25,348 bases of DNA from a virus. Position 1 is the first letter of the stretch. The number at the start of each line of letters is the position of its first letter. The translations under genes and the position numbers were made by a program. The DNA is taken from positions 1 to 25,348 of the IMG/VR virus record IMGVR_UViG_3300025759_000638; one strand, given 5' to 3'. Under the pieces are notes generated by a model. The model searched no databases. It was not told the origin of the DNA and was given only the letters and a program-made list of their open reading frames with translations. Below are positions 2,627-21,245 of this stretch, in pieces.

Positions 2627-2738
2627 ATTTAAAAGTCCTTTCGAGTTCTATTTTCTTTTTGAAGTTGTCAGCAGTTGGCTCGATTCCAACCTTAATAATT
2701 TTGACATCTTGCCCATTAATATTTGTTTCAATTTGCAT
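2526..2738 (-). CDS. small protein of unknown function, 70 aa
   Basis: I chose the start at 2738 because it overlaps the stop of the preceding GIY-YIG-like gene, with GGGGAAAAG upstream. The N-terminal half looks like a small beta-rich domain (MQIETNINGQDVKIIKVG). The C-terminal half is basic. No family is recognised. The out-of-frame overlap of 101 bases with the next gene is odd for this otherwise tightly coupled operon. Confidence 0.45.
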   Translation of the reverse strand: MQIETNINGQDVKIIKVGIEPTADNFKKKIELERTFKYDAIAKPIKNNIYPIERYRGNQQSKQARKTFRK

Positions 2739-3213
2739 ATAGTTCTTTTCCCCATTGTTGCAGTTCGTTAACATTCCTAGTCTTTGATCTTAAAATCTTT
2801 TGCAGTTCAGATTCCAGATAGAAAATAAATTCATCATCTGTAGTTGAATCAGCATTATAAATTTCAGTATAGCCATAAATTTTTTTATCGCTAATTGCTG
2901 AATATTTTTCAAAAGCACAGTCTAGGCTTTTCTTTAAAAATTTCTCGATATAATAAGTTTCAATATCAAGCCACCTTAAACCCTTGTCAAATGAAAGCCA
3001 AATATAACCTATCTCATAATCAGCATAATCTTTTTCAAATGATTTAAACCTTTTTACAGCGTCTATAGTTTTTCCGAATTTAATATATCGTTCTATGATG
3101 TTTCCCTTATCTGATTTTTTCTCAATCGATAAAAGATATAAATGCGAATATTTTAATTGATCTAAAGGCACATTATATTTATAAATCTTTCTAGTTAATA
3201 TTTCTTTTTTCAT
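2728..3213 (-). CDS. possible GIY-YIG/T5orf172-like nuclease-fold protein, 161 aa
   Basis: The start at 3213 has AGGAAACA directly upstream. The protein shows HLYLLSI, then IKFGKTIDAVKRFKSF, and later LDIETYYIEKFL. This matches the strand, (K)(F/I)GKT, Arg and catalytic-Glu helix pattern of the T5orf172 branch of the GIY-YIG fold. It is about twice as long as the minimal domain; the rest is charged and unrecognised. It is the central gene of an operon bracketed by inverted copies of the composite repeat, which would suit a mobile or homing cassette. A second protein with the same pattern is encoded at 1026-1442. Function is inferred from the motif layout only. Confidence 0.65.
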   Translation of the reverse strand: MKKEILTRKIYKYNVPLDQLKYSHLYLLSIEKKSDKGNIIERYIKFGKTIDAVKRFKSFEKDYADYEIGYIWLSFDKGLRWLDIETYYIEKFLKKSLDCAFEKYSAISDKKIYGYTEIYNADSTTDDEFIFYLESELQKILRSKTRNVNELQQWGKELYAN

Positions 3214-5172: not shown

Positions 5173-5637
5173 ATGGCAAAGACACAAATATCTACACGAA
5201 TCAGCCCAGAAGGACTGGAAATTGCAAACGCTTACTTGGAACTAGGAAGTATCCCCGCTGTCTGCTCTCGATTATCAATCGATGAGGCAAAAGCATCCGA
5301 GTACTTACAAAAGAGAGAGGTGAAAGCATATGTTGATCAAGTTTATCTCGATACTGGATATCGAAATCGTTTTAAGTTAGCAGAAGTACTTGATACTTTA
5401 ATAGACGCCAAAATGGAAGAAGCCGAAGAAAGCGAGGTATACACTAGTAAGGATTTAGCCGATCTTGTAGGTATGGCACATAAAATTCGTATGGATGAAT
5501 TAAAAGCACAAACGGAACTAGAAAAAGCAAAAGCACAGACAATTAAAACGCAAGTGAACATACAAGATAATTCACAAGTACCGTTTGGACAAGGAAACTA
5601 TGGAGAGCTTATGAAAAAGCTCCTAAAAGATAAATGA
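5173..5637 (+). CDS. terS: probable terminase small subunit, 154 aa
   Basis: The N-terminal half contains a helix-turn-helix-like segment (GSIPAVCSRLSIDEAKASEY), followed by RFKLAEVLDTLIDAKMEEAE and a long charged helical region (MDELKAQTELEKAKAQ). The C-terminus (GNYGELMKKLLKDK) is what would touch the large subunit. Size and layout fit phage small terminases, which recognise the packaging site and form a ring. No other Met lies near the N-terminus, so ATG 5173 is taken as the start even though it coincides with the predicted transcription start and has no ribosome site. The large subunit is encoded 10 kb away. Assignment is by pattern and position. Confidence 0.65.
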   Translation: MAKTQISTRISPEGLEIANAYLELGSIPAVCSRLSIDEAKASEYLQKREVKAYVDQVYLDTGYRNRFKLAEVLDTLIDAKMEEAEESEVYTSKDLADLVGMAHKIRMDELKAQTELEKAKAQTIKTQVNIQDNSQVPFGQGNYGELMKKLLKDK

Positions 5638-5853: not shown

Positions 5854-5983
5854 AATTATAGAATGGCACAAAAAATTAGTAGAGGATGCAAGAAATCAAT
5901 TCGGATTAAGTAAATATGCAGTAATGTGGATAGCATTTTTAAAAGGAATAGTACTCACGTTACTAGTTTTAGCACTAATATGA
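5846..5983 (+). CDS. single-pass small membrane protein, 45 aa
   Basis: A GTG start overlaps the preceding gene by 8 bases, and the stop overlaps the next start as ATGA. It has an amphipathic, charged N-terminus (SKIIEWHKKLVEDARNQFG) and one C-terminal membrane helix (about residues 26-45). From memory, proteins of this layout (EWHKKLVEDA.. then a TM helix) recur in uncultured marine phage genomes, of unknown role. The topology suggests an inner-membrane anchor for something on the cytoplasmic face. Confidence 0.65.
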   Translation: MSKIIEWHKKLVEDARNQFGLSKYAVMWIAFLKGIVLTLLVLALI

Positions 5984-6282
5984 ATGCAAATGACGTTTTT
6001 ACACTCATTGCAGAGGTAGGAGCACCCATAGCAGGCGCATTAATCGCTGGAGTTTTCATTTTTGTGATTATGCAACAAATTATGGGAGGAGTTGTTAGTC
6101 AAATAGGCACTCTCAAAGGGTTTTGCGAGATGCTTGTTACACGAATCAAGACAATGAACAATGATATGATACGATTAGACACAAGTGTAAGCGCAGCGCT
6201 CGACTTAGCACCAGATTTAGATAGAATAGCAAGAGCCGAAAACTTTGTAGAAGATGGGAGTATTGATGTCAGAAGAGACTAA
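5980..6282 (+). CDS. small membrane protein, holin-like layout, 100 aa
   Basis: The start at 5980 is in an ATGA overlap with the preceding gene. One hydrophobic segment (about residues 14-36, PIAGALIAGVFIFVIMQQIM) is followed by a helical, amphipathic tail. It shares N-terminal and coil features with the protein at 6523-6780 (AE.G.PI, then NDMIRL followed by a helix), so the two look like diverged paralogues. The layout recalls UviB/BhlA-type holin-like peptides, but these genes sit upstream of a secretion operon and no endolysin is near. A membrane scaffold for that system is an alternative. Confidence 0.6.
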   Translation: MNANDVFTLIAEVGAPIAGALIAGVFIFVIMQQIMGGVVSQIGTLKGFCEMLVTRIKTMNNDMIRLDTSVSAALDLAPDLDRIARAENFVEDGSIDVRRD

Positions 6283-6523
6283 TGTTTGTTTTACTCAAGA
6301 TGAGTGGTATGACTTTGTAAGTGAGTACGAACTTGAAATCCTTGATGAAATTGGAACACCCGCTACTACAGGAGATGCCCAAGCAGCCATAGACTTTATA
6401 TGGCAAACACTCTTTCTCAGTCCTTGGGAACTTGCGTACATTGCTCTACCCATGACTGTATTAGCTTTCTACGGATTGTCTATTTACAGTATTTTTAAAT
6501 ATATACAAAAGAGATTTAGTTAA
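6266..6523 (+). CDS. acidic protein with C-terminal membrane helix, 85 aa
   Basis: The start at 6266 is chosen for GGGAG five bases upstream; it overlaps the preceding gene by 17 bases. The first 50 residues are acidic (DEWYDFVSEYELEILDEIG). A hydrophobic helix (about residues 54-75, ELAYIALPMTVLAFYGLSIY) is followed by a basic tail KYIQKRF. This suggests a single pass with the acidic part outside and the basic tail in the cytoplasm. No family is recognised. Confidence 0.6.
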   Translation: MSEETNVCFTQDEWYDFVSEYELEILDEIGTPATTGDAQAAIDFIWQTLFLSPWELAYIALPMTVLAFYGLSIYSIFKYIQKRFS

Positions 6524-6780
6524 TGGCAGAATTAATAGCAGAGTTCGGATTTCCAATTGTAGCAATGGTTGGACTAGGATATTTCGTATACTATGTATGG
6601 AGAACGATGATAGGAGTTATCGGTCCTGCAATCAAAGAGATGCATTTTGCACTTATAAAGTTAATCGATCAAATAAGAATGTTAGACAACGACATGATCA
6701 GGCTGCAGCAAAAAGTAAATACAATACTGCAAATGAAAGAAAATGAGAAAAAGCGTTCTACTACTACTAATCGCAAGTAG
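6523..6780 (+). CDS. small membrane protein, paralogue of the 5980 product, 85 aa
   Basis: Starts in a TAATG overlap. One membrane helix at residues 8-30 (FPIVAMVGLGYFVYYVWRTM) is followed by an amphipathic coil (LIKLIDQIRMLDNDMIRLQQ) and a basic tail. The IRMLDNDMIRLQQKV segment matches IKTMNNDMIRLDTSV of the 5980 product. It overlaps the signal peptide region of the first curlin gene by 38 bases, tying it to that operon. Confidence 0.6.
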   Translation: MAELIAEFGFPIVAMVGLGYFVYYVWRTMIGVIGPAIKEMHFALIKLIDQIRMLDNDMIRLQQKVNTILQMKENEKKRSTTTNRK

Positions 6781-7534
6781 CCTACAAGCAGACGATAACC
6801 ATGTACATATAGATCAATCTGGAGCAAATATGCAAATGGAAATTGATCAAATTGCAGGAACAATCAATAAAGTAGACCTTTCAATTGATGGTACTAGTAA
6901 CTCCCTCGACATTGATCAGTGGGGAAGTAATAACGAGGTATCATGGGTTGACTACTGGGGCTCGGGTGCGAGCTGGGGTGGAGACTTAGACGGAAACAAC
7001 AACTCACTTCATTTTTACCAGTATTGCTCACGAGGCGCTAACTGTGCTAAGAGTGATGTAGGCTTTCATGTATGGGGAGATAGAAATAATGTTCGTTGGG
7101 GTCAAGGTGGTATACTTGATGATATAGATGATACTACTTTTGGAAACGATGGCGATGAAGGTGGTGGATCAAAACTCAATCTTGATATTCACGGAAACGA
7201 CAACAAACTTGCAGGAGTACAAAGAAACGGAAGTGCAAACGTATGGAGTGGACACACTGCAACAATTTACTTATATTCAGACGATAATGAAGTATGGGTA
7301 AATCAAAATACAGATGGAGCAAAAACGTTTAGTCTAACAACAAATAATGATGAGAATAGTGTAAGTGTAGAACAGACAGGATATGCAGCACATACAGGAA
7401 CAATTACTTTAACAGGTAGTTCTCCAACAACATTAAATTTAACACAACAAAGCAATACAGCACAATCTTATAGTTTAACACAAAATTGTGTAACTATAGG
7501 CGGTTGCTCAGTATCAGTGACACAAGGACAATGA
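6743..7534 (+). CDS. secreted curlin-repeat protein (CsgA/CsgB-like), 263 aa
   Basis: A Sec signal peptide of 16 residues (MRKSVLLLLIASSLQA, cut before DD) is followed by spaced curlin-type repeats with Asn, Ile and Gln at fixed distances, such as HIDQSGANMQMEIDQIAG, NSLDIDQWGSNNEV and VSVEQTGYAAHTGTITLTG. In curli these strand-loop-strand units stack into an amyloid beta-solenoid. This protein is about 100 residues longer than E. coli CsgA, is rich in Asn, Asp, Gly and Trp, and ends with a possible disulfide (NCVTIGGC). The paralogue is at 8818. The csgF- and csgG-like genes directly after it identify the likely export route. Whether it polymerises is unknown. Confidence 0.8.
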   Translation: MRKSVLLLLIASSLQADDNHVHIDQSGANMQMEIDQIAGTINKVDLSIDGTSNSLDIDQWGSNNEVSWVDYWGSGASWGGDLDGNNNSLHFYQYCSRGANCAKSDVGFHVWGDRNNVRWGQGGILDDIDDTTFGNDGDEGGGSKLNLDIHGNDNKLAGVQRNGSANVWSGHTATIYLYSDDNEVWVNQNTDGAKTFSLTTNNDENSVSVEQTGYAAHTGTITLTGSSPTTLNLTQQSNTAQSYSLTQNCVTIGGCSVSVTQGQ

Positions 7535-7554
7535 AAGAAGAATTTGGAAGTGGA

Positions 7555-8040
7555 ATGAGCACTGCAGTAAAATACATAATTGCAGCTGGACTCATAGGAT
7601 TTTTACTAAACCAAGCATTATTTGCAGATGAAATGGTACACAAGTTCAAAAGTCCTTCCTTCAACGGTCAAGGCATTTCAGCACATTACCTAACAATCGA
7701 AAATCAAGAAACAAACAGACAAAATGAGATCAAACAAGCATTACAAGATGCACTAGAAGAAGCAGAAAGAGACGCACAGAATACAACTCTTGCAAGATTT
7801 ATTAAAAATTTAGAAAGTAGAATTTATTCACAACTTAGTAGAGATCTAGTTGATAATTTATTCGCAGATGGAATAGCAAGTGCAGCAACAGGAGTCATTG
7901 AACTTCAAGGTAACTATATAGAGTACTCAAGTGATGGAATCACTGTGACACTCAAAGTTACGGACAGTGAGGGAAATGTTACAGAGATCACAATACCTAT
8001 CGGTAGTTTCGGCGATTTCAGTCTTGATGGTGACGGCTAG
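7555..8040 (+). CDS. csgF: CsgF homologue, curli assembly factor, 161 aa
   Basis: The start at 7555 gives a clean signal peptide (STAVKYIIAAGLIGFLLNQA, cut after LFA at 24) with GGAAG upstream. An upstream ATG at 7531, in a CAATGA overlap with the curlin stop, is an alternative. The mature N-terminus has FKSPSFNGQG, matching the F.NP.FGG motif by which CsgF enters the CsgG pore. A helix (LARFIKNLESRIYSQLSRDL) and a C-terminal beta hairpin (NYIEYSSDGITVTLKVTD) also match E. coli CsgF in order. In curli, CsgF extends the CsgG channel and helps nucleation at the surface. Its end overlaps csgG by 65 bases. Confidence 0.85.
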   Translation: MSTAVKYIIAAGLIGFLLNQALFADEMVHKFKSPSFNGQGISAHYLTIENQETNRQNEIKQALQDALEEAERDAQNTTLARFIKNLESRIYSQLSRDLVDNLFADGIASAATGVIELQGNYIEYSSDGITVTLKVTDSEGNVTEITIPIGSFGDFSLDGDG

Positions 8041-8821
8041 CTGTATGCTGGCGCCTGGCAAAGATGTCAGAGATTTTATAAATAACAATCGTCATCTTAC
8101 TGTAGAAAACGTAGCTCAAGTAAGAGAGTTACATAACGAAGAACTATATGCAATTAAAAGAGTTTCTACACCCGCACCTGTAATAGCAATCTATAAGTTT
8201 CCAGACTTAACAGGGCAAAGAAAAAGTAATTCAACTTTTGCACTTTTTAGCACTGCAGTAACAATGGACCCTGCAAGTTTGCTTATTCGTGCATTTAAGC
8301 ATGCAGGAAATGGAAAGTTCTTTCGAGTAGTTGAAAGAGCTGGGTTAGATCATCTTACAAAAGAAAGACAACTTATTCGTTCTACTAGAAATAGTTTGAA
8401 TGAAAAAGAGCAAGTTCTGCCACTACTATTTGCAGGCTTGCTAATTGAAGGCGGTGTTATCGGGTATGACACCAATCTACGATCAGGAGGTATTGGAGCA
8501 AGGTATCTGGGTATTGGAGCTCAGAAACAATATCGTGAAGATACTGTATCAGTTTCAATTAGAACTATCTCAGTCTCATCTGGTGAAGTTTTAATGGAAG
8601 TACTTGTGACAAAGACTATTCTCTCGGTAGGAGTGTCACAGGATGTATTTAGGTTTATAGAACTTGGAACAGAATTAGTCGAAGTAGAAAATGGAGCAAC
8701 TAAGAACGAAAGTGTGACGATTGCTTTACAAAAAGCTTTAGAGACAGGAGTTTTACAAACAATCTATGAAGGGGAGAAAAAGGGGTACTGGAAAACAGCA
8801 CCCGCTGGGGAAGCACAATGA
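7976..8821 (+). CDS. csgG: CsgG homologue, outer-membrane lipoprotein pore, 281 aa
   Basis: The start at ATG 7976 follows GAGGG; a GTG at 7967 is possible. A lipoprotein signal ends in VTASC, with Cys23 to be acylated. The mature part follows E. coli CsgG closely in order: YKFPDLTGQ, FSTAV, ERQLIRSTR, IEGGVIGYDTNLRSGGIGAR, GIGAQKQY, SGEVL, TKTILS, VFRFIELGTEL and an ALETGV segment. CsgG forms a nonameric outer-membrane channel that secretes curlin subunits. Length fits the family (277 aa in E. coli). Its start region lies inside csgF in another frame, and its stop overlaps the next start (CAATGA). It is the strongest homology call in the operon. Confidence 0.92.
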   Translation: MLQRSQYLSVVSAISVLMVTASCMLAPGKDVRDFINNNRHLTVENVAQVRELHNEELYAIKRVSTPAPVIAIYKFPDLTGQRKSNSTFALFSTAVTMDPASLLIRAFKHAGNGKFFRVVERAGLDHLTKERQLIRSTRNSLNEKEQVLPLLFAGLLIEGGVIGYDTNLRSGGIGARYLGIGAQKQYREDTVSVSIRTISVSSGEVLMEVLVTKTILSVGVSQDVFRFIELGTELVEVENGATKNESVTIALQKALETGVLQTIYEGEKKGYWKTAPAGEAQ

Positions 8822-9570
8822 AATTAGTTGGAGCTAATTTAATACTAGTACTCATTGCAGTATTTACAATTTTTGCAAGTGCAGCTGACAATGAAGTATT
8901 TATAACACAGAGCGGTACGAATGCTCAAATAGAAATCGATCAGATTGGATCAGGAAACACTGTAGAAGGAAATGAAGCCGCAGGTTCAGAACCAATTAGT
9001 GATTTCAAATTAACAGGTAATTCACAAACGATTGATATTGATCAGGTTGGTGACAGTAACATTTTTAGAGGAGATATTGATTCCGATACTTTTACTGGTA
9101 ACTTTAGTTTTACTGGAGATAGTAATGAGTTTGACATTCAATTTGATCCAGCAGGAAGTTATATTTCTGATAATATTACAATGGATGTTACAATTACTGG
9201 AAGCTCAAATGATCTTACTGTAACAGTAGCAAATAATGATAGTGCAGCAAACTTAGATTATGATGCAGTTATTAGTGGTGATTACAATACTTGGGTTACT
9301 GCTATTGATTCAGATAACGTTACATTCAATGTGGATGTAAATGGAAGTAATGGTAGTATAGACTATGATGCAGATGGTTATGCTGTAAACTCAAGCGGAC
9401 ATACATTCATTTTAGATCAAGATGGAGATTATGTCGACTATGTAATCGATCAACAGTCAACAAGTGCTGTGGATTATTTAAACTTACAAATGACAACAAG
9501 TGGTACAAGTGGAAGCGAAGCAAATATTTGCGTTTATCAGTCTGATAACGCTACATCTACAAGCTGCTGA
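8818..9570 (+). CDS. second secreted curlin-repeat protein (CsgA/CsgB-like), 250 aa
   Basis: ATG in a CAATGA overlap with csgG; GGGGAAG upstream. The signal peptide is about 22 residues (cut in FASA/AD). The N-terminus FITQSGTNAQIEIDQIGSGN and then TIDIDQVGDSN parallel the first curlin protein almost position for position. The middle is a long series of Thr/Ser/Asn/Asp-rich strand repeats with few Gln, and the end has two Cys (NICVYQ and the last residue). One of the two proteins may nucleate the other, as CsgB does for CsgA; the sequence does not show which. Theoretically very acidic. Its 3' end encodes the start of the FecR gene in another frame. Confidence 0.8.
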   Translation: MKLVGANLILVLIAVFTIFASAADNEVFITQSGTNAQIEIDQIGSGNTVEGNEAAGSEPISDFKLTGNSQTIDIDQVGDSNIFRGDIDSDTFTGNFSFTGDSNEFDIQFDPAGSYISDNITMDVTITGSSNDLTVTVANNDSAANLDYDAVISGDYNTWVTAIDSDNVTFNVDVNGSNGSIDYDADGYAVNSSGHTFILDQDGDYVDYVIDQQSTSAVDYLNLQMTTSGTSGSEANICVYQSDNATSTSC

Positions 9571-10609
9571 TATAGGAAGCATAAGCGAACTAAAGGGTGA
9601 AGCTTCGGTCAATCGATCAGGCGAAGCCCTTACAGCCGCATTAGATTTAGGAGTTGAATCTTATGACGATGTTAGAACTGCTAATAGTAGGGTGGGTCTT
9701 ACTTTTATCGACGACTCTGTTGTGCGTCTTACTGAGCATTCGAAGCTTATACTTGACGAGGTTATATTTGATCCAGATCCTTCTAAGTCTAAGATTGGAC
9801 TTACTTTTGCTTCGGGAACAGCAAGATTTATTACAGGAAAAATAGGTGGAATTAATAAAGAAAATATCAAGATCAATACTCCGACTTCTCAAATCGGTAT
9901 TCGAGGAACTGACTTTACTGTTACTGTTGATGAGCTGGGTCGTAGCTTGGTTATTCTTCTACCTGATATCGATGGGATATCATCTGGCGAGATCACAGTG
10001 GAGACCGCAGCGGGATTGGTCATTCTTAACAAACCGTATGAAAGCACCACCACATCCGTCTGGGAAAGTTCACCAACGCAACCAGTAACACTCGATATCA
10101 CACTAGACTTAATTGACAATATGCTCATAGTAAATGAGCCAAAAGAAGAAGAAGTAGTAGAAGAAACAAATAATGTAAGAACTGGAGACTTACTTGATTT
10201 TAATGATTTAGACGTAGACCTACTTAATGAAGATGTGCTAGCAGAAGAAGATTTAGAATTTACAGAACTTGACATTAACTTTTTAGATGTTAACTTTTTC
10301 GAAGACTTACTTGAAGTCATAGAAGAAATAGATCGATTAAGAGAAGGAAACGAAAAAGATAAAAAGACAGCATCAGTAGGAAAAGCTACTATCGAGGGTA
10401 CAACGATTGGTCAAGATCCTACTACTCAAATTATTACTATAGTAGATACACAGAATATAAACATATCGAGACAAGTAAATGACTTTGCAAAAGTTCGACT
10501 TGACTCACAGGCAGGAGTAACTTTAATTATATCACAAGATGGAAAAGAATATAACATTATTATTAATAAAGGTGGGACTTCTAATATTATCATTAGACAG
10601 TCCAGCTAA
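9500..10609 (+). CDS. secreted FecR-domain protein, 369 aa
   Basis: GTG start (9500, or 9509), overlapping the curlin gene by 71 bases. A signal peptide of about 22 residues ends in LHLQA/AD. Residues about 25-185 form a FecR domain: GSISELKGEASVNR, a RVGLTFIDDSVVRL segment, and TPTSQIGIRGTDFTV, the family's most conserved motif. An unusually acidic, low-complexity stretch (about 213-285) follows, and then a beta-rich tail with NINISRQ and SNIIIRQ, which resemble single curlin half-repeats. FecR-domain proteins act in the periplasm as ligand-binding or signalling partners, and in bacteria they are often encoded beside CHASE2 cyclases, as here. It is not the sigma-regulator FecR itself, since no N-terminal cytoplasmic part is present. 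Confidence 0.8.
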   Translation: MVQVEAKQIFAFISLITLHLQAADIGSISELKGEASVNRSGEALTAALDLGVESYDDVRTANSRVGLTFIDDSVVRLTEHSKLILDEVIFDPDPSKSKIGLTFASGTARFITGKIGGINKENIKINTPTSQIGIRGTDFTVTVDELGRSLVILLPDIDGISSGEITVETAAGLVILNKPYESTTTSVWESSPTQPVTLDITLDLIDNMLIVNEPKEEEVVEETNNVRTGDLLDFNDLDVDLLNEDVLAEEDLEFTELDINFLDVNFFEDLLEVIEEIDRLREGNEKDKKTASVGKATIEGTTIGQDPTTQIITIVDTQNINISRQVNDFAKVRLDSQAGVTLIISQDGKEYNIIINKGGTSNIIIRQSS

Positions 10610-10919
10610 ATGGGAAGACTGGAACACTACAGATAAAAATCTATATAAAGCATACCTAATAGGAAGTGCTTTAGATTACATGCAAACAAAAAATGCATTA
10701 GATAATCATTATGTAGAAGGAAACCCTTTTCTAGGGAGATATCCTTCCTCTGAGCGAATTTTAGCACAGAAAGTTTTATCTGCGGGTGTCATGTATTGGA
10801 GTTTTAATAAATTAGACGAAAAACAAAAAAGAAGAGGACTATTTATAGTCAATGGAATACAATGGGGAGTCGTTTTAAAAAATGAAAGCGTTGGTGCTAC
10901 ATTTATTTATCGCTGGTAG
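10539..10919 (+). CDS. small secreted or membrane protein, 126 aa, unknown
   Basis: ATG 10539 overlaps the FecR gene by 71 bases; a GTG at 10572 is an alternative start. A hydrophobic N-terminus (NITLLLIKVGLLILSLDSPA) is signal-like. The rest has a moderately hydrophobic helical pattern with conserved-looking ALDYMQTKNALDN and EGNPFLGRYPS, then two weak membrane stretches. A D..T..AL....EANP.LG pattern is known from uncharacterised small bacterial membrane proteins; I cannot name the family with confidence. Its place between FecR and the lipoprotein makes it a likely accessory of the same system. Confidence 0.65.
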   Translation: MEKNITLLLIKVGLLILSLDSPAKWEDWNTTDKNLYKAYLIGSALDYMQTKNALDNHYVEGNPFLGRYPSSERILAQKVLSAGVMYWSFNKLDEKQKRRGLFIVNGIQWGVVLKNESVGATFIYRW

Positions 10920-11040
10920 TTTACTTACTGCTTGCAGTACTGTACCACGAGAACCTCAAGAAGATAAATGGGGTCAATGGGACTTCTGTGAGCAGTGGGC
11001 TTATGACGGCGAATCATGGATGCAATGTATGAACTCATGA
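10882..11040 (+). CDS. short lipoprotein, 52 aa
   Basis: An overlooked short gene. It has a type II signal peptide with a textbook lipobox LTAC (Cys18). The 35-residue mature part is rich in Trp, Gln and Glu and has two further Cys (FCEQWAYDGESWMQC) that could form a disulfide. The start overlaps the previous gene by 38 bases, and the stop overlaps the cyclase start (CATGA). It has the size of a phage Rz1-type spanin lipoprotein, but no Rz partner is adjacent. A role in anchoring or regulating the CsgG/FecR system is as likely. Confidence 0.7.
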   Translation: MKALVLHLFIAGSLLTACSTVPREPQEDKWGQWDFCEQWAYDGESWMQCMNS

Positions 11041-12818
11041 TTCGACTACTAATTGCTTCAGGACTTCTAGCACTTTTTATTTGGAATCCTTATCCACTAC
11101 AATATTTAGAACTCAAGAGTTATGATACTCTTATTATGTCAACAGAACCAGTACAAAATGAAAACATACTGATTGTTGATTTAGACGAAGACTTAGTAAA
11201 AGCCTATGAAGGTTATCCTTTACCGAGAAGTCTTTATGCGGAGCTGATTAGAAAAACAAACGCAGTTCCAGGGATCACAGTGTTGATGCCCGATCCTGAT
11301 ATAAGAGGAAAAGAAAATGATTTAACGCTGAGTAATGCCATGATGAATGTACCTACAGTACTCGCATCAGCAGCATCTACTCAATCGTCAAAAGAAAGCC
11401 TACATGTAGGCACAGCACAATTAGGAGGTGATCCACTACCATGGCTATACGAATATCCAGGAATTTTACGTACAGAGTCTACTCTGGAGTTAAGCAGAAA
11501 GGGGCTAGGGCTGATAACCGCTACGCCGGAAATAGACGGGGTTACTCGTCGTATTCCCCTAGTCGTAAACGTCCAGTCAAAACTTTACCCAGCTTTCGGC
11601 TTGGAACTCTTAAGACTCGCAGTAAACGATCCTTCGTACCAGCTAAAAACAACACAAGAAGGTATTAGTTGGATAAGGGTACCTAGTTACCCTCTAATGA
11701 ATACCGACGCTAACGCTCGTATCTTTTTAGACTGGAATACGAACTTCTATAAACAAACAGGATTAGAGTTTTTAACCAATCCCATCGACGCACCTTTTGT
11801 TATCTTCGGCGTGACAGCAGAAGGTGTCGTCAATCCAACTCCAACTCCAGCAGGGTTGAAGTACCCACATGAAATACAAGCTAACATTTTACATAATCTT
11901 ATTAACGGTAGTGCTCCTTCCACTCCTACTTGGGCTGGTGGATCAGAGTTACTGGGAGGATTACTCGCAATATCTATTATTGCACTCACAGCATCCTATG
12001 TCTGGCTTAGCTTACCCACATTAATTATACTTATAGCTGGGTTACTATATGGAGCCTGGTATGCGTTTCAATCTTCTTATTTGATAGACGTCAGCGGGAT
12101 TATTTTAATCTCGTTTTTATTCTGGAGTATTGAAAGTTTCCGTAATTTCATTACGCAGTATTTGCTGAGATTACAAATTAAACAACAATTCGGAACGTAT
12201 GTATCTCCCGACCTTGTAAAAAAATTACAGGAGGACCCAACGTTACTGAGATTGGGTGGGGAGACGAAACGACTTACTTTTCTTTTTTCAGATATTCGAG
12301 GATTCACACCAATTTCTGAAAAATACCAAAAAGATCCACAAGGTCTTACAAAATTAATCAACCGATTTTTGGATAATCAAACAGAAATCATACTAAAACA
12401 TGGCGGAACCATAGATAAATACATGGGAGATTGTATTATGGCTTTCTGGAACGCACCACTTGACATCGATGATCAAGAAAGAAAGGCTACAGAGTGTGTA
12501 CTCGAGATGCGAGAGGCACTAGGAGAATTAAATGAAAAACTTAAAGAAGAAAATCTTGACCAAATTAATACAGGAGCAGGAATTAATACTGGCTTATGTG
12601 TCGTTGGTAACTTTGGTAGTAGTAGTCGTTTTGATTACTCTGTCTTAGGAGATTCTGTAAACTTAGCTGCTCGACTAGAGTCCTCATGTAAGAACTACGA
12701 TGTCGATCTTGTCATATCTGAGTACAGTTTAGTTGACGGATATGACTACGAGTTCTTAGACGAAGTAACGGTAAAAGGCAAATCCGAACCAGTCAAAATA
12801 TATACCATCAGAAAATAA
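11037..12818 (+). CDS. CHASE2-class III adenylate/guanylate cyclase, 593 aa
   Basis: The start is in an ATGA overlap (an ATG at 11016 would add 7 residues, and the numbering here uses that 600-aa form). After an N-terminal membrane helix comes a CHASE2 sensor domain (about 35-300, periplasmic), then three membrane helices (about 310-370), then a class III cyclase domain (418-600). Metal-binding Asp426 (FLFSDIRGF) and Asp472 (IDKYMGD), base-binding Lys468, and transition-state Asn549 and Arg553 (GDSVNLAAR) are all present, so it should be active. Lys468 with Ser542 suggests ATP as substrate. It would sense a periplasmic signal, perhaps via the FecR protein, and make cAMP in the host. It is the last gene of the operon; a promoter follows four bases later. 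Confidence 0.9.
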   Translation: MIRLLIASGLLALFIWNPYPLQYLELKSYDTLIMSTEPVQNENILIVDLDEDLVKAYEGYPLPRSLYAELIRKTNAVPGITVLMPDPDIRGKENDLTLSNAMMNVPTVLASAASTQSSKESLHVGTAQLGGDPLPWLYEYPGILRTESTLELSRKGLGLITATPEIDGVTRRIPLVVNVQSKLYPAFGLELLRLAVNDPSYQLKTTQEGISWIRVPSYPLMNTDANARIFLDWNTNFYKQTGLEFLTNPIDAPFVIFGVTAEGVVNPTPTPAGLKYPHEIQANILHNLINGSAPSTPTWAGGSELLGGLLAISIIALTASYVWLSLPTLIILIAGLLYGAWYAFQSSYLIDVSGIILISFLFWSIESFRNFITQYLLRLQIKQQFGTYVSPDLVKKLQEDPTLLRLGGETKRLTFLFSDIRGFTPISEKYQKDPQGLTKLINRFLDNQTEIILKHGGTIDKYMGDCIMAFWNAPLDIDDQERKATECVLEMREALGELNEKLKEENLDQINTGAGINTGLCVVGNFGSSSRFDYSVLGDSVNLAARLESSCKNYDVDLVISEYSLVDGYDYEFLDEVTVKGKSEPVKIYTIRK

Positions 12819-13769: not shown

Positions 13770-13912
13770 TGCCTGTACGTAAAGTAAAGGGCGGTTACAA
13801 GTGGGGAAAATCAGGCAAAGTTTATAAAACTAAGAAACAAGCTGAAGCCCAAGGCAGAGCAATATATGCTTCTGGATACAAAAAGAATGGCAAGAAAAAG
13901 AAAAAGCGTTAA
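13769..13912 (+). CDS. small basic phage protein, 47 aa
   Basis: Starts in a TAATG overlap. The MPVRKVKGGYKWGKSGKVY opening and QAEAQGRAIYASGY centre form a compact motif that I recognise from memory in many phages as an uncharacterised small protein. The C-terminus is a Lys run. Overlaps the next gene by 26 bases. Confidence 0.7.
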   Translation: MPVRKVKGGYKWGKSGKVYKTKKQAEAQGRAIYASGYKKNGKKKKKR

Positions 13913-14069
13913 AAAGAAACCAGTGCCAACAAATCCTAAGCTATATGCAAGAATTAAAGCACAGGCAAAAAGAAAATTTAAAGTTTATCCAAGTGCATAT
14001 GCAAACGGATGGTTAGTAAAAACTTACAAAGCAAAAGGCGGTAAGTATCGCATGGGAAAAAGAAAATGA
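13887..14069 (+). CDS. small basic phage protein (DUF5872-like N-terminal motif), 60 aa
   Basis: The start at MARKRK (13887) is chosen over an earlier ATG that lacks a typical sequence. PTNPKLYARIKAQAKRKFKV and NGWLVKTYKAKGGKYR form the motif of a domain common in phages and plasmids (similar to DUF5872, from memory). Strongly basic. Stop overlaps the next start (ATGA). Confidence 0.65.
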   Translation: MARKRKSVKKKPVPTNPKLYARIKAQAKRKFKVYPSAYANGWLVKTYKAKGGKYRMGKRK

Positions 14070-14320
14070 AAGGAATATACACAGGAGACGGAAAATTTAT
14101 CGTTAAAAGTGGGCACACAGATGCTGCTTCTGCAATAACAAGTTGTAAAATTATTATGAACCATTGCCAAATGATTCTAGATGGATTAGAAGGTAACGAA
14201 GAAATGGACAAGCTTCCTACATGGTGGACAAATAAATTAGCTATTTCTGAATACGAAGTTGTATCGGCTGCTAATTATTTATCATCTGGAGATATTGAAC
14301 ACGAACATGGCGAAACCTAA
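14066..14320 (+). CDS. small helical protein, 84 aa
   Basis: ATGA start. Contains a DAASAITSCKIIMNHC helix and LPTWWTNKLAISEYEVVSAA, resembling the W..NKL..A.. helical motif of small conserved phage proteins. It is near neutral, unlike its very basic neighbours. Function unknown. Overlaps the next gene by 14 bases. Confidence 0.65.
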   Translation: MKGIYTGDGKFIVKSGHTDAASAITSCKIIMNHCQMILDGLEGNEEMDKLPTWWTNKLAISEYEVVSAANYLSSGDIEHEHGET

Positions 14321-14591
14321 AGGTGGTTTAACAAAGTGGTTTAAAGAAAAGTGGGTAGATATAGGTCGTCCTAAAAAGAAAGGAAAATATCAACCTTGTG
14401 GCAGAGGAAAAGCAAAAACCTCTCGAAGAGGGTATCCAAAATGTGTACCTTTAGCTCGTGCTAGAACTATGAGCAAAGCTCAAAGAAAATCTGCTGTTCG
14501 AAGAAAAAGAGCAGTAAGTCAAGGAGTAGGTGGAAGACCAACAAATGTTCGAACAATCGCCAGAAGAAAAACTAAAAGAGGTAAGAGATAA
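14307..14591 (+). CDS. basic Trp/Cys-containing phage protein, 94 aa
   Basis: The start at 14307 (MAKPKGGLTKWFKEKW) is chosen; the longer frame has no ribosome site and an unlikely hydrophobic start. It shows KWVDIGRPKKKGKYQPCGRG and RRGYPKCVPLARART, then a strongly Arg/Lys-rich C-terminus. The W.DI.RPK..G.Y..CGR motif recurs in marine phages and some large viruses, from memory, with unknown role. Probably DNA- or RNA-binding. Confidence 0.7.
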   Translation: MAKPKGGLTKWFKEKWVDIGRPKKKGKYQPCGRGKAKTSRRGYPKCVPLARARTMSKAQRKSAVRRKRAVSQGVGGRPTNVRTIARRKTKRGKR

Positions 14592-14709
14592 AGAACGTCA
14601 GTTTACTGACTGGGCTTTACAAAGAATCTCTCAGGGCGAGTTTCGAGAAAATTATTATAAACTATTAAAACAATACGAGGAAGAAAATGGTAGAATGGTT
14701 AAAGATTAA
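14545..14709 (+). CDS. small acidic helical protein, 54 aa
   Basis: An overlooked short gene overlapping the previous one by 47 bases and the next by 23. The product is Glu/Lys-rich and helical (EEKLKEVRDKERQFTDWALQ). Ribosome site weak, so moderate confidence. Function unknown. Confidence 0.55.
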   Translation: MFEQSPEEKLKEVRDKERQFTDWALQRISQGEFRENYYKLLKQYEEENGRMVKD

Positions 14710-14815
14710 ATGGACACAATTTGTGAACATTGTCTCAGGACAAGATAAGAACTGGGACGGCAAAGTGGATATTAAAGATAAACTGATAGAAGCTGAGCAA
14801 AAAGCTAAAAGCTAA
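14687..14815 (+). CDS. mini-protein with an EF-hand-like loop, 42 aa
   Basis: GAGGAAGAAA precedes the ATG. An amphipathic helix (MVEWLKIKWTQFVNIV) is followed by DKNWDGKVDIKD, with acidic or Asn residues at EF-hand positions 1, 3, 5 and 9 and Asp at 12, then a second helix. It may bind one calcium ion. Similar short D.N.DGKVD proteins occur in phages, from memory. Function unknown. Confidence 0.65.
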   Translation: MVEWLKIKWTQFVNIVSGQDKNWDGKVDIKDKLIEAEQKAKS

Positions 14816-14846
14816 AATTCATTAGCTAAGTCACATAAGGACTAGC

Positions 14847-15032
14847 ATGGACAGACGAGAAACTGCAAACGAGATTCTACAAATAGTAAGGATGTCGCTT
14901 AAATTCAAGAAAGCTATAGAACAAAGACTAGCGTGGAGCGAAGAACTTCGTAGCTTATTAAATTTACCACGCACTAAAAATAATAAAGAATTATTAAAAA
15001 CTCATTTAAAAAATGGGACGGAACAGGGATAA
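14847..15032 (+). CDS. small basic helical protein, 61 aa
   Basis: AAGGA seven bases before the ATG. Predicted helices (ETANEILQIVRMSLKFKKAI, then WSEELRSLL). No recognised family. It has a 31-base gap before it and 18 after, so it is not overlapped. Confidence 0.6.
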   Translation: MDRRETANEILQIVRMSLKFKKAIEQRLAWSEELRSLLNLPRTKNNKELLKTHLKNGTEQG

Positions 15033-15050
15033 CCTGTTTAGGAAAAGAAA

Positions 15051-15314
15051 ATGGCAAGACAAGGCGGATTTCTAAGTGGACCAAGCGTTCACGGTACATC
15101 TAAATTAAGAAAGCATGTACTAAAACGAGGTGTCACTAGAGACATGAACTCAGCTGCAGGAAACTTTGTAAATACAAAGACTCCTATGTCCACTCCTGGT
15201 GGATTCTACGGAGCAGCTCCGAAAGCAATCGGACCAAGATTCGGCAAAACAGTCAACCCTAAAAGGGCTAGATTTAGTAAAAAAGGTGCAAGCCGAATAT
15301 TACGTAGAAGATAA
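15051..15314 (+). CDS. basic Gly/Arg-rich protein, 87 aa
   Basis: TTTAGGAAAAGAAA precedes the ATG. It is a Gly, Lys and Arg-rich protein without clear helices (QGGFLSGPSVHGTSKLRKHV, ending GASRILRRR). It looks largely disordered and may be an internal capsid or DNA-binding protein. No family is recognised. Confidence 0.65.
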   Translation: MARQGGFLSGPSVHGTSKLRKHVLKRGVTRDMNSAAGNFVNTKTPMSTPGGFYGAAPKAIGPRFGKTVNPKRARFSKKGASRILRRR

Positions 15315-15330
15315 ATATTATTCACAGAGA

Positions 15331-15372
15331 CTTTCATAAATTTATGAAAGCAGGACGACTTAGTAAAGTCGT
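15331..15372. promoter_or_regulatory. two adjacent perfect palindromes in an intergenic gap
   Basis: CTTTCATAAATTTATGAAAG (15331-15350) is a perfect 20-bp palindrome. Four bases later ACGACTT, AGTA, AAGTCGT (15355-15372) forms a 7-bp hairpin. They fill most of the 72-base gap between two genes. They could be an operator, an RNA-processing site or a translational control element for the next gene, whose ribosome site is weak. Confidence 0.5.
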
Positions 15373-15386
15373 AAACATGATACACA

Positions 15387-15731
15387 ATGGCACTAACAGC
15401 AGCAGAAAAAGCAAGGCTAAAAAAGGCAGGACTCTCACGACTAAACAGTCCAAAGAGAACTCCTAAGCACCGAACAAAGAAAGCAGTTGTAGCTGTAAGA
15501 GTCGGTGGCAAAGTGAAAATCATTCGCTTTGGAGCGCAAGGCATGGGGCATAATTATAGCCCAGAAGCACGACGCAGTTTCAAAGCACGACACGGAAGAA
15601 ATATCGCAAAAGGCAAATCTTCCGCAGCCTATTGGGCAAACAAAGTATTTTGGGCAGGTAAAGGTGGTTCAAAGAAAAGACCACCTCGCTCCCAAAAAAG
15701 ACAACTTGGAATCAAACGAAGGAAAAGATGA
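15387..15731 (+). CDS. conserved basic phage protein, 114 aa
   Basis: MALTAAEKARLKKAGL, KHRTKKAVVAVRVGGKVKII, RFGAQGMGH and FKARHGRNIAKGKSSAAYWA form a layout that I recall from many marine phage genomes as a conserved hypothetical protein. Very basic throughout, with an Arg-rich end. Its position before the large terminase is typical. It may be an internal virion or DNA-binding protein. Stop overlaps the next start (ATGA). Confidence 0.7.
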   Translation: MALTAAEKARLKKAGLSRLNSPKRTPKHRTKKAVVAVRVGGKVKIIRFGAQGMGHNYSPEARRSFKARHGRNIAKGKSSAAYWANKVFWAGKGGSKKRPPRSQKRQLGIKRRKR

Positions 15732-15970
15732 CAGTACCAAAAGTAATAGATCGAAGAGAAGTATGGTTAGATGGTGTTAAGTTAGATGCCGTTAAACTTC
15801 TAACAACGTTACAAAGTCGTAAACTTGACGGTATTACTTTATCTGAAAGAGAAGAAGAAATTTGCGAACTTACAAGCGGATACTTATATTTATTACAGCT
15901 TTGCAAAGAGTATGGAATGTTTGATTCTGATGACCCATTTAATTTATTTGAAAAAGAGACCTTACATTGA
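15728..15970 (+). CDS. small protein before the large terminase, 80 aa
   Basis: ATGA start; its stop overlaps the TTG start of the terminase. Helical, mixed charge (VKLLTTLQSRKLDGITLSER, then LTSGYLYLLQLCKEYGMF). It could assist the terminase, given the double coupling, but no family is recognised. Confidence 0.65.
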   Translation: MTVPKVIDRREVWLDGVKLDAVKLLTTLQSRKLDGITLSEREEEICELTSGYLYLLQLCKEYGMFDSDDPFNLFEKETLH

Positions 15971-17268
15971 TCGAAATAAGCCGTTCAGATATTGTATCTG
16001 ACTATCATATGGACATAAGTTCAGAAACTCGTTTTATCAAACTTCCGATAGAGGGTTATTTAGAACTATTAAACATTACTCCAAATTCATCCCAAACTGC
16101 AATTATCAATGCAATCAACAATCCTAAATATCGTTTTGTCTGCGCAGCAGTATCACGACGACAAGGAAAAACATATATTAGTAATATTATAGGACAACTA
16201 ACTTGTTTAGTTCCAGGCTCTCATGTATTACTTATGTCACCTAATTACTCACTATCTCAAATCTCATTTGACTTACAGAGAAATCTCATCAAGCATTTTG
16301 ATTTAGAGGTAACACGAGACAACGCAAAAGACAAAGTTATTGAACTATCAAATGGTTCTACAATACGAATGGGTTCTATCAATCAGGTAGACTCAGTAGT
16401 TGGTAGAAGTTATGATCTCATTATATTTGATGAAGCAGCGCTAACAGACGGCAGAGATGCTTTTAATGTTGCATTACGTCCTACACTAGATAAAGAAAAC
16501 TCCAAAGCAATTTTTATATCAACTCCTCGAGGTAGAAATAACTACTTCGCAGAGTTTTATTATAGAGGATGGACCGAAGAGTTTCCAGAGTGGTGTAGTA
16601 TAAAAGCTACTTACCATGAGAATCCTCGAGTATCTGAAGCAGATATTATCGAAGCAAGAAAAACAATGTCAGAGGCTGAGTTTAATCAAGAGTATATGGC
16701 AGACTTCAATGTATTTGAAGGACAGATATGGAAGTTTAACCATGAAAAATGTACTGGAGACTTTTCACAACTTGATACAAGAGAAATGGATGTATTCGCA
16801 GGGTTAGATGTCGGGTATAAAGATCCTACAGCTTTATGTGTATTAGCATATGATTGGGATACTTCAACTTATCACTTAGTAGATGAATACTATAATTCAG
16901 AAAGAACAACAGAACAACACGCAGCTGAAATACGAAAACTGATAGAAAAATGGGATATTGATTATATCTACATTGATTCCGCTGCTCAACAAACAAGATA
17001 TGACTTTGCACAAAATTATGATATTAGCACTATTAATGCAAAGAAATCAGTACTAGACGGAATAGGGCATGTAGCGGGCATAGTGGATAACGATGGGCTT
17101 ATGGTTGATCAGAAATGCAAAGAAGCTCAAATGTGCTTAGATCAGTACCAATGGGATCCAAATCCTAATTTAATGAGAGAAAAGCCAAAACATGACATGG
17201 CATCTCATATGGCTGATGCTTTACGATACGCACTCTATTCATTTGAAACCAATATCACTACATTCTAA
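15967..17268 (+). CDS. terL: terminase large subunit, 433 aa
   Basis: A TTG start overlaps the preceding stop (TTGA) with AAAGAGAC upstream; ATG 16009 is the alternative. ATPase: Walker A SRRQGKT (63-69), Walker B LIIFDEA (Asp155, Glu156), coupling motif ISTPRGR (185-190). Nuclease of RNase H fold: Asp281 (GLDVGY), Asp337 (YIDSAA) and the last Asp pair in HDMASHMADALRY (410, 417). All catalytic positions are present. It pumps DNA into the prohead and cuts it. It is separated from the probable small subunit by about 10 kb that holds the secretion operon. Confidence 0.95.
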   Translation: MIEISRSDIVSDYHMDISSETRFIKLPIEGYLELLNITPNSSQTAIINAINNPKYRFVCAAVSRRQGKTYISNIIGQLTCLVPGSHVLLMSPNYSLSQISFDLQRNLIKHFDLEVTRDNAKDKVIELSNGSTIRMGSINQVDSVVGRSYDLIIFDEAALTDGRDAFNVALRPTLDKENSKAIFISTPRGRNNYFAEFYYRGWTEEFPEWCSIKATYHENPRVSEADIIEARKTMSEAEFNQEYMADFNVFEGQIWKFNHEKCTGDFSQLDTREMDVFAGLDVGYKDPTALCVLAYDWDTSTYHLVDEYYNSERTTEQHAAEIRKLIEKWDIDYIYIDSAAQQTRYDFAQNYDISTINAKKSVLDGIGHVAGIVDNDGLMVDQKCKEAQMCLDQYQWDPNPNLMREKPKHDMASHMADALRYALYSFETNITTF

Positions 17269-18919: not shown

Positions 18920-19195
18920 ATGACAAAGAATATGATGGCTAAAGCATTATCCGACTGGTTTGTAGAACAAGGCGTCGAAGAAATGGATTTACCAACTTAC
19001 AAAAGTCATGGCAATGACGTTCCAGTTAAAGACTATATGCTCAGACGAGCATTTGGTTCTTGGAGACGAGTGTTGTCAGCCATGAATAAAAGGCATCCAG
19101 TAGCTGTAGTTGAAGAAGCTCCAGCACCAACTCCCGCCCCAAAAGCAAAACCGAAAGCGCCTGCTAAGAAAGCGGAGACGAAAAATGTCAAATAA
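18920..19195 (+). CDS. small protein with Pro/Ala/Lys tail, 91 aa
   Basis: ATG four bases after the portal stop. A small domain (ALSDWFVEQGVEEMDLPTYK, then VPVKDYMLRRAFGSWRRVLS) is followed by a tail of Pro, Ala and Lys (about 62-91). The domain resembles ones I recall beside phage portals, function unknown. A scaffold or head-assembly role is possible. It overlaps the start of the protease-capsid gene by 11 bases. Confidence 0.65.
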   Translation: MTKNMMAKALSDWFVEQGVEEMDLPTYKSHGNDVPVKDYMLRRAFGSWRRVLSAMNKRHPVAVVEEAPAPTPAPKAKPKAPAKKAETKNVK

Positions 19196-21245
19196 AATTT
19201 ATCATTGGACTAGCACTTTTAAAACATTAGGCGAAACCGAAGATGGTGGAGTTGATATTAAAGGATCTGCTAGCACTAACGCTCTTGATAGAGCAGGCGA
19301 CATAATCGAATCAGATGCTTGGACAAAAGGTGGATTAGAAAACTATAAAGGTAATCCAATTATTTTGTTCAATCATAATTACGACAAACCGATTGGTCGT
19401 GCAAAAGATTTAAAAGTTACTGAGAATGGACTCGAGATTTCTGCAAAGATTTCAAAAGGTGCAGGCGATAACGTAACACAATTAATTAAAGACGGTGTCC
19501 TTGGGGCTTTTTCTGTTGGTTTCAAAGTCAAGGACGCTGATTATATGACCGAAACCGATGGATATAAGATAAAGGACGCAGAGCTTTTTGAAGTATCTGT
19601 AGTATCAGTGCCATGCAACCAAGGGGCAACCTTTGGATTAAGCAAGTCATTCGATTCTATGGACGAATACAATGAGTATAAGCAAACTTTTTATAAGGCT
19701 AACTTAAAAGATTCAGCAGACGCTGTTGAAATTGAGCAGCCAAGTACGGCGAAAGCCAAGGAAATGGAGACAAATATGTCAAAAGAAAATAAATCTCCTG
19801 AAAGCAACCCAGAGTTCAATCTTGAATCATTTGCTGCAGAAGCTGCTGAAAAAGCAGTTGCTCAGTATGCAATGAAACAAGCCGAACTTAAAGCTGCTGA
19901 ACAGAAGGCTGCAGAAGAAGCTGCTCAAAAAGCTGCTAACGAAGCTGAAGTTCAAAAAGCCTCCGAGGAAGCAAAACAGGAAGAGCAAAAAACTGTAATC
20001 CAAGCTGGATTAACAGGTGCTGAAAAATTAATGTCTGACGTTGAGAAACGTGTGAACGACAACTACTCTAACTTAGAGACTGTTGTTAAATCACTAGAAG
20101 CTCAACTAGCAGAGAAGTCTGAAGAAATCATGAATATTCGTGAGTCAAAAAGACATTTCTCTGACAGACAAGGTAACAACTCCGATTGGAAAAAATCATT
20201 CGAAAGCGACATTCTTGACGCTAAATTTGCTGGTCTAGCGACTGGTAAAGGATGGGACAACCCAATGGCAAAATCTTTAATGGAAAAAGTAAATCAACAT
20301 TCAGGTGTTGAAGTTTCTTCCGCTGATTTTGAGCAAGTCGTTTCAACAAACATCGAAAGAGATATCGAAAACGAATTAGTCTTGGCTCCTCTATTTAGAG
20401 AAATCCCAATGACTTCTGCGAATATGATTATCCCTATTCTACCAGATGCTGGTTACGCTGAATTCGCTTCAGGTACAGCCGCTAGTGGATCAGCTCCTTA
20501 TGGTAACTTAGAGACCAGAGGCGACACATACGGATCACCTTACACTGGTGTTACTATGACTGAAAGAACTCTTTCAACTAAGAAATTAATCTCAACTTCA
20601 TACTTAGGTAATGAAACTGAAGAAGATGCAATCTTACCGATTCTTCCTTTAATTAGAGAGTCTATGGTAAGATCACACGCTAGAGGTATCGAAAATGCTA
20701 TCCTAGCTGGTGATGATGCTGATGGTGTCTACGGAACAAGTGGTGCTGCTTTTGAAGGTCTACTTCACTTAGCAAGAAATGACAGTGATTATACACAGTC
20801 AGCTACCGCTTTCGCAACTGACACTGTTACAGCTGCAGAACTTCTTTCAATGAGAAAAAACATGGGTAAATATGGTGTTAATCCATCTGACGTAGTTTAT
20901 ATTGTTTCACAGAGAACATATTACGAACTACTAGAAGATGCTGAATTCCAAGATGCTAATTTAGTAGGCGATATGGCTACTAAACTAAGTGGTGAAATTG
21001 GTCAAGTATTCGGTTCAAGAGTACTATTATGTGACGAGTTCGCTACTCCAGCAGTATCTAAATTCGCAGCTATCGCTGTTAACCCTAGAAACTTTGTATT
21101 ACCAAGATTACGTGGTGTGACTGTAGAGTCAGACTATGAAGTTTCTGCTCAGCGCAGAGTGCTTGTTGCTTCACAAAGAATTGGCTTCACCGATCTTATC
21201 GATGGTGCTACTTCTAAATGGGGACACATGTACAAAGCTAGCTAA
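19185..21245 (+). CDS. prohead protease-major capsid protein fusion (HK97 fold), 686 aa
   Basis: Start at 19185 with GGAG upstream. Residues 1-155 are an S78-type prohead protease: GSASTNALDRAGDII, His64 (ILFNH), Ser110 (LGAFSVGF) and LFEVSVVSVP. Residues about 200-320 are Ala/Glu/Lys-rich coiled coil, the delta or scaffold domain. Residues about 330-686 are the HK97-fold capsid protein (ILPDAGYAEFASGTAASGSA, DVVYIVSQRTYYELL, GSRVLLCDEFATPA). Usually these are separate genes. An in-frame ATG at 19776 (residue 198) with GGAG seven bases upstream could give free scaffold-capsid protein, so the protease fusion might be the minor product. Confidence 0.92.
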   Translation: MSNKIYHWTSTFKTLGETEDGGVDIKGSASTNALDRAGDIIESDAWTKGGLENYKGNPIILFNHNYDKPIGRAKDLKVTENGLEISAKISKGAGDNVTQLIKDGVLGAFSVGFKVKDADYMTETDGYKIKDAELFEVSVVSVPCNQGATFGLSKSFDSMDEYNEYKQTFYKANLKDSADAVEIEQPSTAKAKEMETNMSKENKSPESNPEFNLESFAAEAAEKAVAQYAMKQAELKAAEQKAAEEAAQKAANEAEVQKASEEAKQEEQKTVIQAGLTGAEKLMSDVEKRVNDNYSNLETVVKSLEAQLAEKSEEIMNIRESKRHFSDRQGNNSDWKKSFESDILDAKFAGLATGKGWDNPMAKSLMEKVNQHSGVEVSSADFEQVVSTNIERDIENELVLAPLFREIPMTSANMIIPILPDAGYAEFASGTAASGSAPYGNLETRGDTYGSPYTGVTMTERTLSTKKLISTSYLGNETEEDAILPILPLIRESMVRSHARGIENAILAGDDADGVYGTSGAAFEGLLHLARNDSDYTQSATAFATDTVTAAELLSMRKNMGKYGVNPSDVVYIVSQRTYYELLEDAEFQDANLVGDMATKLSGEIGQVFGSRVLLCDEFATPAVSKFAAIAVNPRNFVLPRLRGVTVESDYEVSAQRRVLVASQRIGFTDLIDGATSKWGHMYKAS

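Follow-up and report, generated by a model that had tools for sequence, protein, structure and literature searches.

What does a phage do with genes for curli-type amyloid export, and how far does such a gene set extend? We examined these questions in a 25,348-nucleotide stretch of viral DNA (IMG/VR record IMGVR_UViG_3300025759_000638, positions 1 to 25,348; the whole stretch is hereafter the window). A first-pass annotation, made from the sequence alone, had described four overlapping genes in it (6743-9570), encoding CsgG, CsgF and two curlin-repeat proteins. The coordinates and overlaps of these genes were correct and the set is a phage-encoded, type VIII-like secretion set, but its bounds had been drawn too narrowly: a FecR-domain protein, a CHASE2 cyclase and paired small membrane proteins also belong to it. 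Together they form a gap-free chain of about 11 genes (5926-12818), running from tmA-L to the CHASE2 adenylate cyclase in the order of Table 1, in which every gene touches or overlaps the next. More than 160 viral homologue loci were compared, and almost all retain the order tmA-(tmA)-CsgF-CsgG-curlin A-FecR-(curlin B)-(126-aa protein)-cyclase. Our analysis suggests that the chain is a curli (type VIII secretion) module carried by the phage, through which the infected cell probably displays curli-like amyloid fibres late in infection, under a monitoring circuit of its own.

Pfam profile searches confirmed that CsgF (PF10614, E 9e-16) and CsgG (PF03783, E 2e-48) are clear members of their families, both above cut-off, and the window CsgG aligned with E. 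coli CsgG at E 3e-42. The lipobox (lipidation) cysteine of CsgG is invariant across 15 homologues. A P-x-F-x-G region at the CsgF N-terminus is conserved between phage and bacterial proteins; in E. coli, the N-terminus is the CsgG-binding part of CsgF (PMC7304575).

The same profile check was run on the two exported proteins, which are assigned here as diverged curlin-repeat proteins. The window copies fall below the Pfam cut-off, yet the curlin family could be assigned because their homologues match PF07012: 9 of 14 for curlin B (best 5e-16) and 7 of 26 for curlin A (best 4e-5). The spaced Q-x-G-x-x-N curlin motif was about 25-35 times commoner than in shuffled sequences, a ratio drawn from related rows and thus not an independent count. 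The predicted structure of curlin A is all-beta and solenoid-like (predicted local distance difference test score, 81.5). A Foldseek comparison of this model with solved structures gave no significant match, only general beta-helix folds, and we therefore make no fold claim beyond the model itself. In the window and its nearest relatives (loci L002-L006) curlin B precedes csgF, whereas in most other modules the curlin B class follows FecR. The 126-aa membrane protein, for which 11 of the first 84 loci hold a homologue, fills the slot used by curlin B in most two-curlin modules.

The downstream part of the module may serve in signalling. The FecR-domain protein matches PF04773 (E 3e-11), as do 41 of 41 homologues, and its modelled FecR domain resembles the PupR surface-signalling domain (Z 16.5, root-mean-square deviation 2.3 over 137 residues). 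A signal peptide leads directly into the FecR domain, with no anti-sigma segment and no membrane span, and the phage 'FecR' is not evidence for iron uptake. In the predicted model a disordered linker then connects to a C-terminal beta domain, and the C-terminal end is conserved. The last 50 residues look curlin-like; because real sequences scored barely above shuffled ones with the curlin profile, this resemblance is suggestive only. At 9500-9570 the sequence coding for the FecR signal peptide overlaps the end of the curlin A gene in a different frame, and homologues show the same overlap.

The cyclase matches PF05226 (CHASE2, E 5e-27) and PF00211 (E 1e-20). Across 26 homologues, D426, D472, K468 and R553 are invariant, and D546 and N549 are at least 90% conserved. 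The class III set, comprising two metal-binding aspartates, the adenine-binding lysine and aspartate, and the transition-state asparagine and arginine, is complete, and the active site of the predicted adenylate cyclase is intact. In Alphaproteobacteria, a FecR open reading frame (ORF) lay within about 6 kb of a CHASE2-cyclase gene in 12 of 20 loci, where about 0.2 would be expected from the genome-wide FecR density (74 matches in about 73 Mb) scaled to the DNA examined. FecR and CHASE2-cyclase are therefore a linked pair in these bacteria. None of the 20 loci contained csg genes; conversely, we detected no FecR, cyclase or tmA genes in five alphaproteobacterial csgFG loci or in the gammaproteobacterial ones examined. 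Since each type of bacterial locus is without the genes of the other, phages appear to have brought together what are two separate units in bacteria, one for curli export and one for FecR-CHASE2 signalling. In Burkholderia, an operon of FecR and a CHASE2 kinase has been linked to biofilm (PMC5192318).

At its upstream end the module opens with small membrane proteins. tmA-L (phrog_18771, E 2e-23) and tmA-S (phrog_18771, E 2e-26; holin-like phrog_4898, E 2.6e-4) are paralogues of 85-118 aa in the window, each containing a single hydrophobic segment and a C-terminal half that resembles a coiled coil. In almost every viral locus, csgF is preceded by a tmA homologue. The tmA alignment held no block conserved enough for a conserved-block scan, and a search with tmA-S as single-protein query returned 80 loci, with CsgF next in all except L153, which ends just after tmA. 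tmB, with no Pfam or PHROG match, has homologues in L003, L108, L147, L149, L158 and L187. A histidine kinase, sometimes two, has been reported always before csgF (PMC9599517). Nine carrier records, HTVC008M and Melnitz among them, contained no HATPase_c domain, and because position and number fit, this 'histidine kinase' is most likely tmA, a single-span membrane protein of about 90 aa that has no kinase domain. That identification rests on position, number and the carrier records.

The window TerL (terminase large subunit) is 49-50% identical to those of T5-like phages, and the window is collinear with T5 through TerS (terminase small subunit; T5.156), TerL, T5.153, portal, protease, capsid, T5.148, T5.147, T5.146 and tail tube. 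The carrier had been called an HK97-type phage; the HK97 fold stands, and collinearity with T5 specifies it more closely as a marine T5-like siphophage, a relative of the Demerecviridae. A DNA similarity search for the host gave only T5-like terminase matches. The module lies between the TerS and TerL genes. Among 20 further module contigs, 12 (including ones of 105, 88 and 75 kb) had a TerL match, and 11 of these were 76-90% identical to the window TerL; the remote TerL of L170 (27%) was excluded from the T5-like count. A TerL scan found 26 loci with module genes upstream. Six others had at least 3 kb upstream and no module genes, but some 3-4 kb separate the end of the cyclase from TerL, which makes a short upstream stretch uninformative: five were too short to tell, and only L319 lacked the cyclase at the expected place. 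With 26 of 27 informative contigs carrying it, the module is near-universal in the marine T5-like group as sampled. L319 (1-7637) has a 2-oxoglutarate (2OG)-oxygenase-like ORF at the cyclase site and may represent a module-free site.

All sampled viral CsgG sequences formed one clade apart from six bacterial sequences (support 100/97), which, given the small bacterial sampling, is compatible with a single acquisition. T5-like contigs were scattered within this clade, the starred branches forcing five label changes, although some unlabelled contigs may also be T5-like. L138 and L182 share 89% identity in TerL, 49% in CsgG and 58% in the cyclase; conversely, L007 and L008 share 83% in TerL and 95% in CsgG. 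These disagreements indicate that module versions, or parts of them, have been swapped between lineages at the same site. The ratio of non-synonymous to synonymous substitution (dN/dS) against the close relatives L003, L005 and L006 was 0.05-0.30 across module genes (most 0.10-0.18), and the module genes are therefore maintained under purifying selection.

Contigs from bacterial metagenome-assembled genomes (MAGs; Rhodobacteraceae, Pelagibacter, Flavobacteriaceae and Maricaulis; L084-L088, L092, L093 and L099) contain a large part or the whole of the phage module. They appear to be phage contigs binned into MAGs, and they are a trap for bacterial CsgG trees. A scan of genome contigs with viral CsgG returned mostly such contigs (L084-L088, L092), and bacterial neighbourhoods were taken from whole-genome searches. 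Among phage records, OR851715.1, a 1,499-base unannotated 'Salmonella phage' entry with a 40% CsgG match, is probably a bacterial fragment.

How might the module work? Curlins A and B would cross the inner membrane through the host Sec system, pass unfolded through the CsgG-CsgF pore and polymerise at the cell surface. The state of the envelope or the fibre may be translated into a change in cyclic AMP (cAMP) by the FecR protein together with the periplasmic CHASE2 domain, and the tmA pair would act in the inner membrane. A fibre coat would most likely change how other cells and phages come into contact with the infected cell, through superinfection exclusion or aggregation. We prefer surface display with envelope sensing because it explains the conserved parts best, and the pelagiphage module is expressed in metatranscriptomes (PMC9599517). 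Repeated swapping at one fixed site among close relatives somewhat favours a role in phage competition over housekeeping.

Several observations weigh against fibre display. The two window curlins score just under the PF07012 cut-off (E 0.026 and 0.0015), and phage curlins are long and far diverged from CsgA. Of the three residues forming the E. coli CsgG constriction, two differ in phage CsgG. A PF10627 search of the window and six relatives, in which the E. coli positive control was detected, found no CsgE, in line with the first-pass annotation, although CsgE is not essential for curli in E. coli (PMC7029224). No fibre has ever been seen, and cultures infected with Melnitz showed no clumping (PMC9004378).

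A special case of surface display, with a purpose different from exclusion, is the capture of sibling cells: fibres would stick the infected cell to its neighbours so that progeny reach new hosts (PMC7029224, PMC9599517). It draws on the same molecular evidence, namely the families, the gene order and the curlin homology, and suits a dilute ocean habitat and a module found in phages of different families. Given the unclumped Melnitz cultures, and since it does not specifically predict repeated module exchange, we consider it possible but unlikely. More doubtful still is an elaboration in which the module is a phage-specific type VIII subtype with quality control: the FecR protein, with its curlin-like tail, and the CHASE2 cyclase would turn fibre export into cAMP, tmA would couple the inner membrane, and the cassette would be traded as a surface-competition system.

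A pore that times lysis, listed as a possible role in the first-pass annotation and proposed for Melnitz (PMC9004378), has lost support and now seems improbable. CsgG/CsgF, perhaps with the holin-like tmA pair, would permeabilise the envelope and so trigger or tune lysis. CsgG does form a large pore, the module sits among late genes, and tmA has a weak similarity to phrog_4898 (8 of 17 members, best 3e-5), a profile match to be taken as a lead. The published proposal was based on missing csgA and csgB, a premise that fails: Melnitz and HTVC008M each encode two curlin-repeat proteins. Nor does such a pore require curlins, FecR or cyclase. No lysis gene was recognised adjoining tmA in the window. 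A dedicated lysozyme gene is present in four of five long T5-like relative records, which makes a lysis role less likely. In a 104-kb T5-like contig (L193, 17991-19118) the lysozyme gene is followed by overlapping Rz- and Rz1-like (spanin-like) genes, judged by eye, with no holin recognised.

Equally tied to published proposals, and less probable again, is a nutrient channel, in which CsgG, ungated for want of CsgE, would stay open and admit larger molecules (PMC7029224, PMC9599517); the absence of CsgE and the oligotrophic habitat fit, but the joint conservation of CsgF, curlins, FecR and cyclase is left unexplained and the FecR protein, with neither anti-sigma part nor membrane span, offers no evidence of iron uptake. 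Misassembly of bacterial DNA onto phage DNA, which the normally bacterial origin of CsgG might suggest and which the first-pass annotation had named as one refuting case, has a negligible chance and was rejected, since the same junction and arrangement, with 70-97% similar proteins, recur in many independent contigs from different metagenomes, the examined bacterial csgFG loci show no tmA, FecR or cyclase, and the viral CsgG clade stands apart.

Table 1. Genes of the curli module and its flanking terminase genes in the window.
Feature	Position	Strand	Basis or remark
tmA-L, small single-span coiled-coil membrane protein (phrog_18771)	5926..6282	+	homologue-supported start near 5971
tmB, small membrane protein between the tmA pair	6254..6523	+	
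tmA-S, tmA-L paralogue, weakly holin-like (phrog_4898)	6523..6780	+	
Curlin B, exported curlin-repeat protein, conserved C-end Cys pair	6743..7534	+	alignment; PF07012 in homologues
CsgF	7531..8040	+	PF10614
CsgG, outer-membrane lipoprotein pore	7976..8821	+	start GTG 7967 or ATG 7976; PF03783
Curlin A, exported curlin-repeat protein	8818..9570	+	alignment; PF07012; model
Exported FecR-domain protein: FecR domain, disordered linker, C-terminal beta domain, curlin-like tail	9500..10609	+	PF04773
126-aa membrane protein, weakly DUF5658-like	10539..10919	+	PF18902 E 0.1, below cut-off
Small putative lipoprotein	10882..11040	+	signal sequence with cysteine lipobox, by eye
CHASE2-domain membrane class III adenylate cyclase	11016..12818	+	PF05226, PF00211
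Flanking TerS (T5.156 homologue)	5173..5637	+	phrog_3802 E 1e-37; T5.156 E 1e-30
Flanking TerL (T5.155 homologue)	15967..17268	+	T5 TerL E 2e-127

The small putative lipoprotein had no family match and no homologue among the viral loci, occurring in the window only, and an Rfam search of the window gave no match. Between the module and TerL (13866-15731) lies a cluster of small, very basic proteins that is kept in L319. Two minus-strand ORFs (1026-1442 and 2728-3213) resemble GIY-YIG/T5orf172-type proteins by eye. The head maturation protease and major capsid protein form one 711-aa ORF (19110-21245), as in the 104-kb relative, which also carries carbamoyltransferase, asparagine synthase, sulfotransferase, Hsp20 and 2OG-oxygenase genes (L189-L194).

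These results make T5-like siphophages a third phage lineage carrying virus-encoded curli export. The near-core status of the module in this group makes a direct benefit to the virus likely. Two misleading readings in the literature, the histidine kinase and FecR as an iron regulator, can be replaced by testable ones, and the FecR-cyclase part gains a bacterial precedent. Should fibres form, abundant ocean bacteria would have their surface remodelled by viruses just ahead of lysis.

The first-pass remark that the idea is 'not wholly new' was right and even understated: the core module has been published for SAR11 podo- and myophages, or pelagiphages (PMC7029224, PMC9004378, PMC9599517), and is annotated in Pelagibacter phage HTVC008M and Methylophilales phage Melnitz. 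With this pelagiphage type VIII secretion module (PMC9599517) the window shares the gene order CsgF, CsgG, curlin, FecR, CHASE2 cyclase, as well as small upstream genes, a second curlin and the lack of CsgE. The window differs in that the carrier is a T5-like siphophage, the module lies between terminase genes, curlin B has shifted to a place before csgF, additional small genes are present and the tmA pair stands where a histidine kinase is named. Although the Melnitz paper calls csgA/csgB missing (PMC9004378), the GenBank entry (MZ577097.1; L083, 9734-12528) annotates two curlin-repeat proteins; Melnitz does encode curlins. In PMC9599517 the best BLAST hit decided whether an ocean contig was placed with myo- or podophages, and some of the modules tallied there may therefore come from T5-like phages. 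As far as the literature searched shows, the following are new: that T5-like phages carry the module, that it is near-universal and exchanged within them, that a curlin has been relocated, that a linked tmA family stands where a kinase was named, and that the bacterial FecR-CHASE2 linkage provides a precedent.

The E. coli curli operons (csgBAC/csgDEFG) share the CsgG lipoprotein pore, the conserved CsgF N-terminus and curlin-repeat substrates, whereas the phage module is without CsgE, shows no CsgC or CsgD, has long, diverged curlins and adds FecR, cyclase and tmA. Bacterial FecR and CHASE2 loci (the Burkholderia BiofilmReg operon, PMC5192318; alphaproteobacterial cyclases) likewise place an exported FecR-domain protein beside a CHASE2-sensor enzyme, a kinase in Burkholderia and a cyclase in the phage; the 20 tested loci are free of csg genes, and many bacterial FecR proteins are larger. 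Finally, Escherichia phage T5 (Demerecviridae) has collinear terminase, portal, protease, capsid and tail genes; in T5, unlike the window, TerS and TerL touch with no module between them, and the protease and major capsid protein are separate genes.

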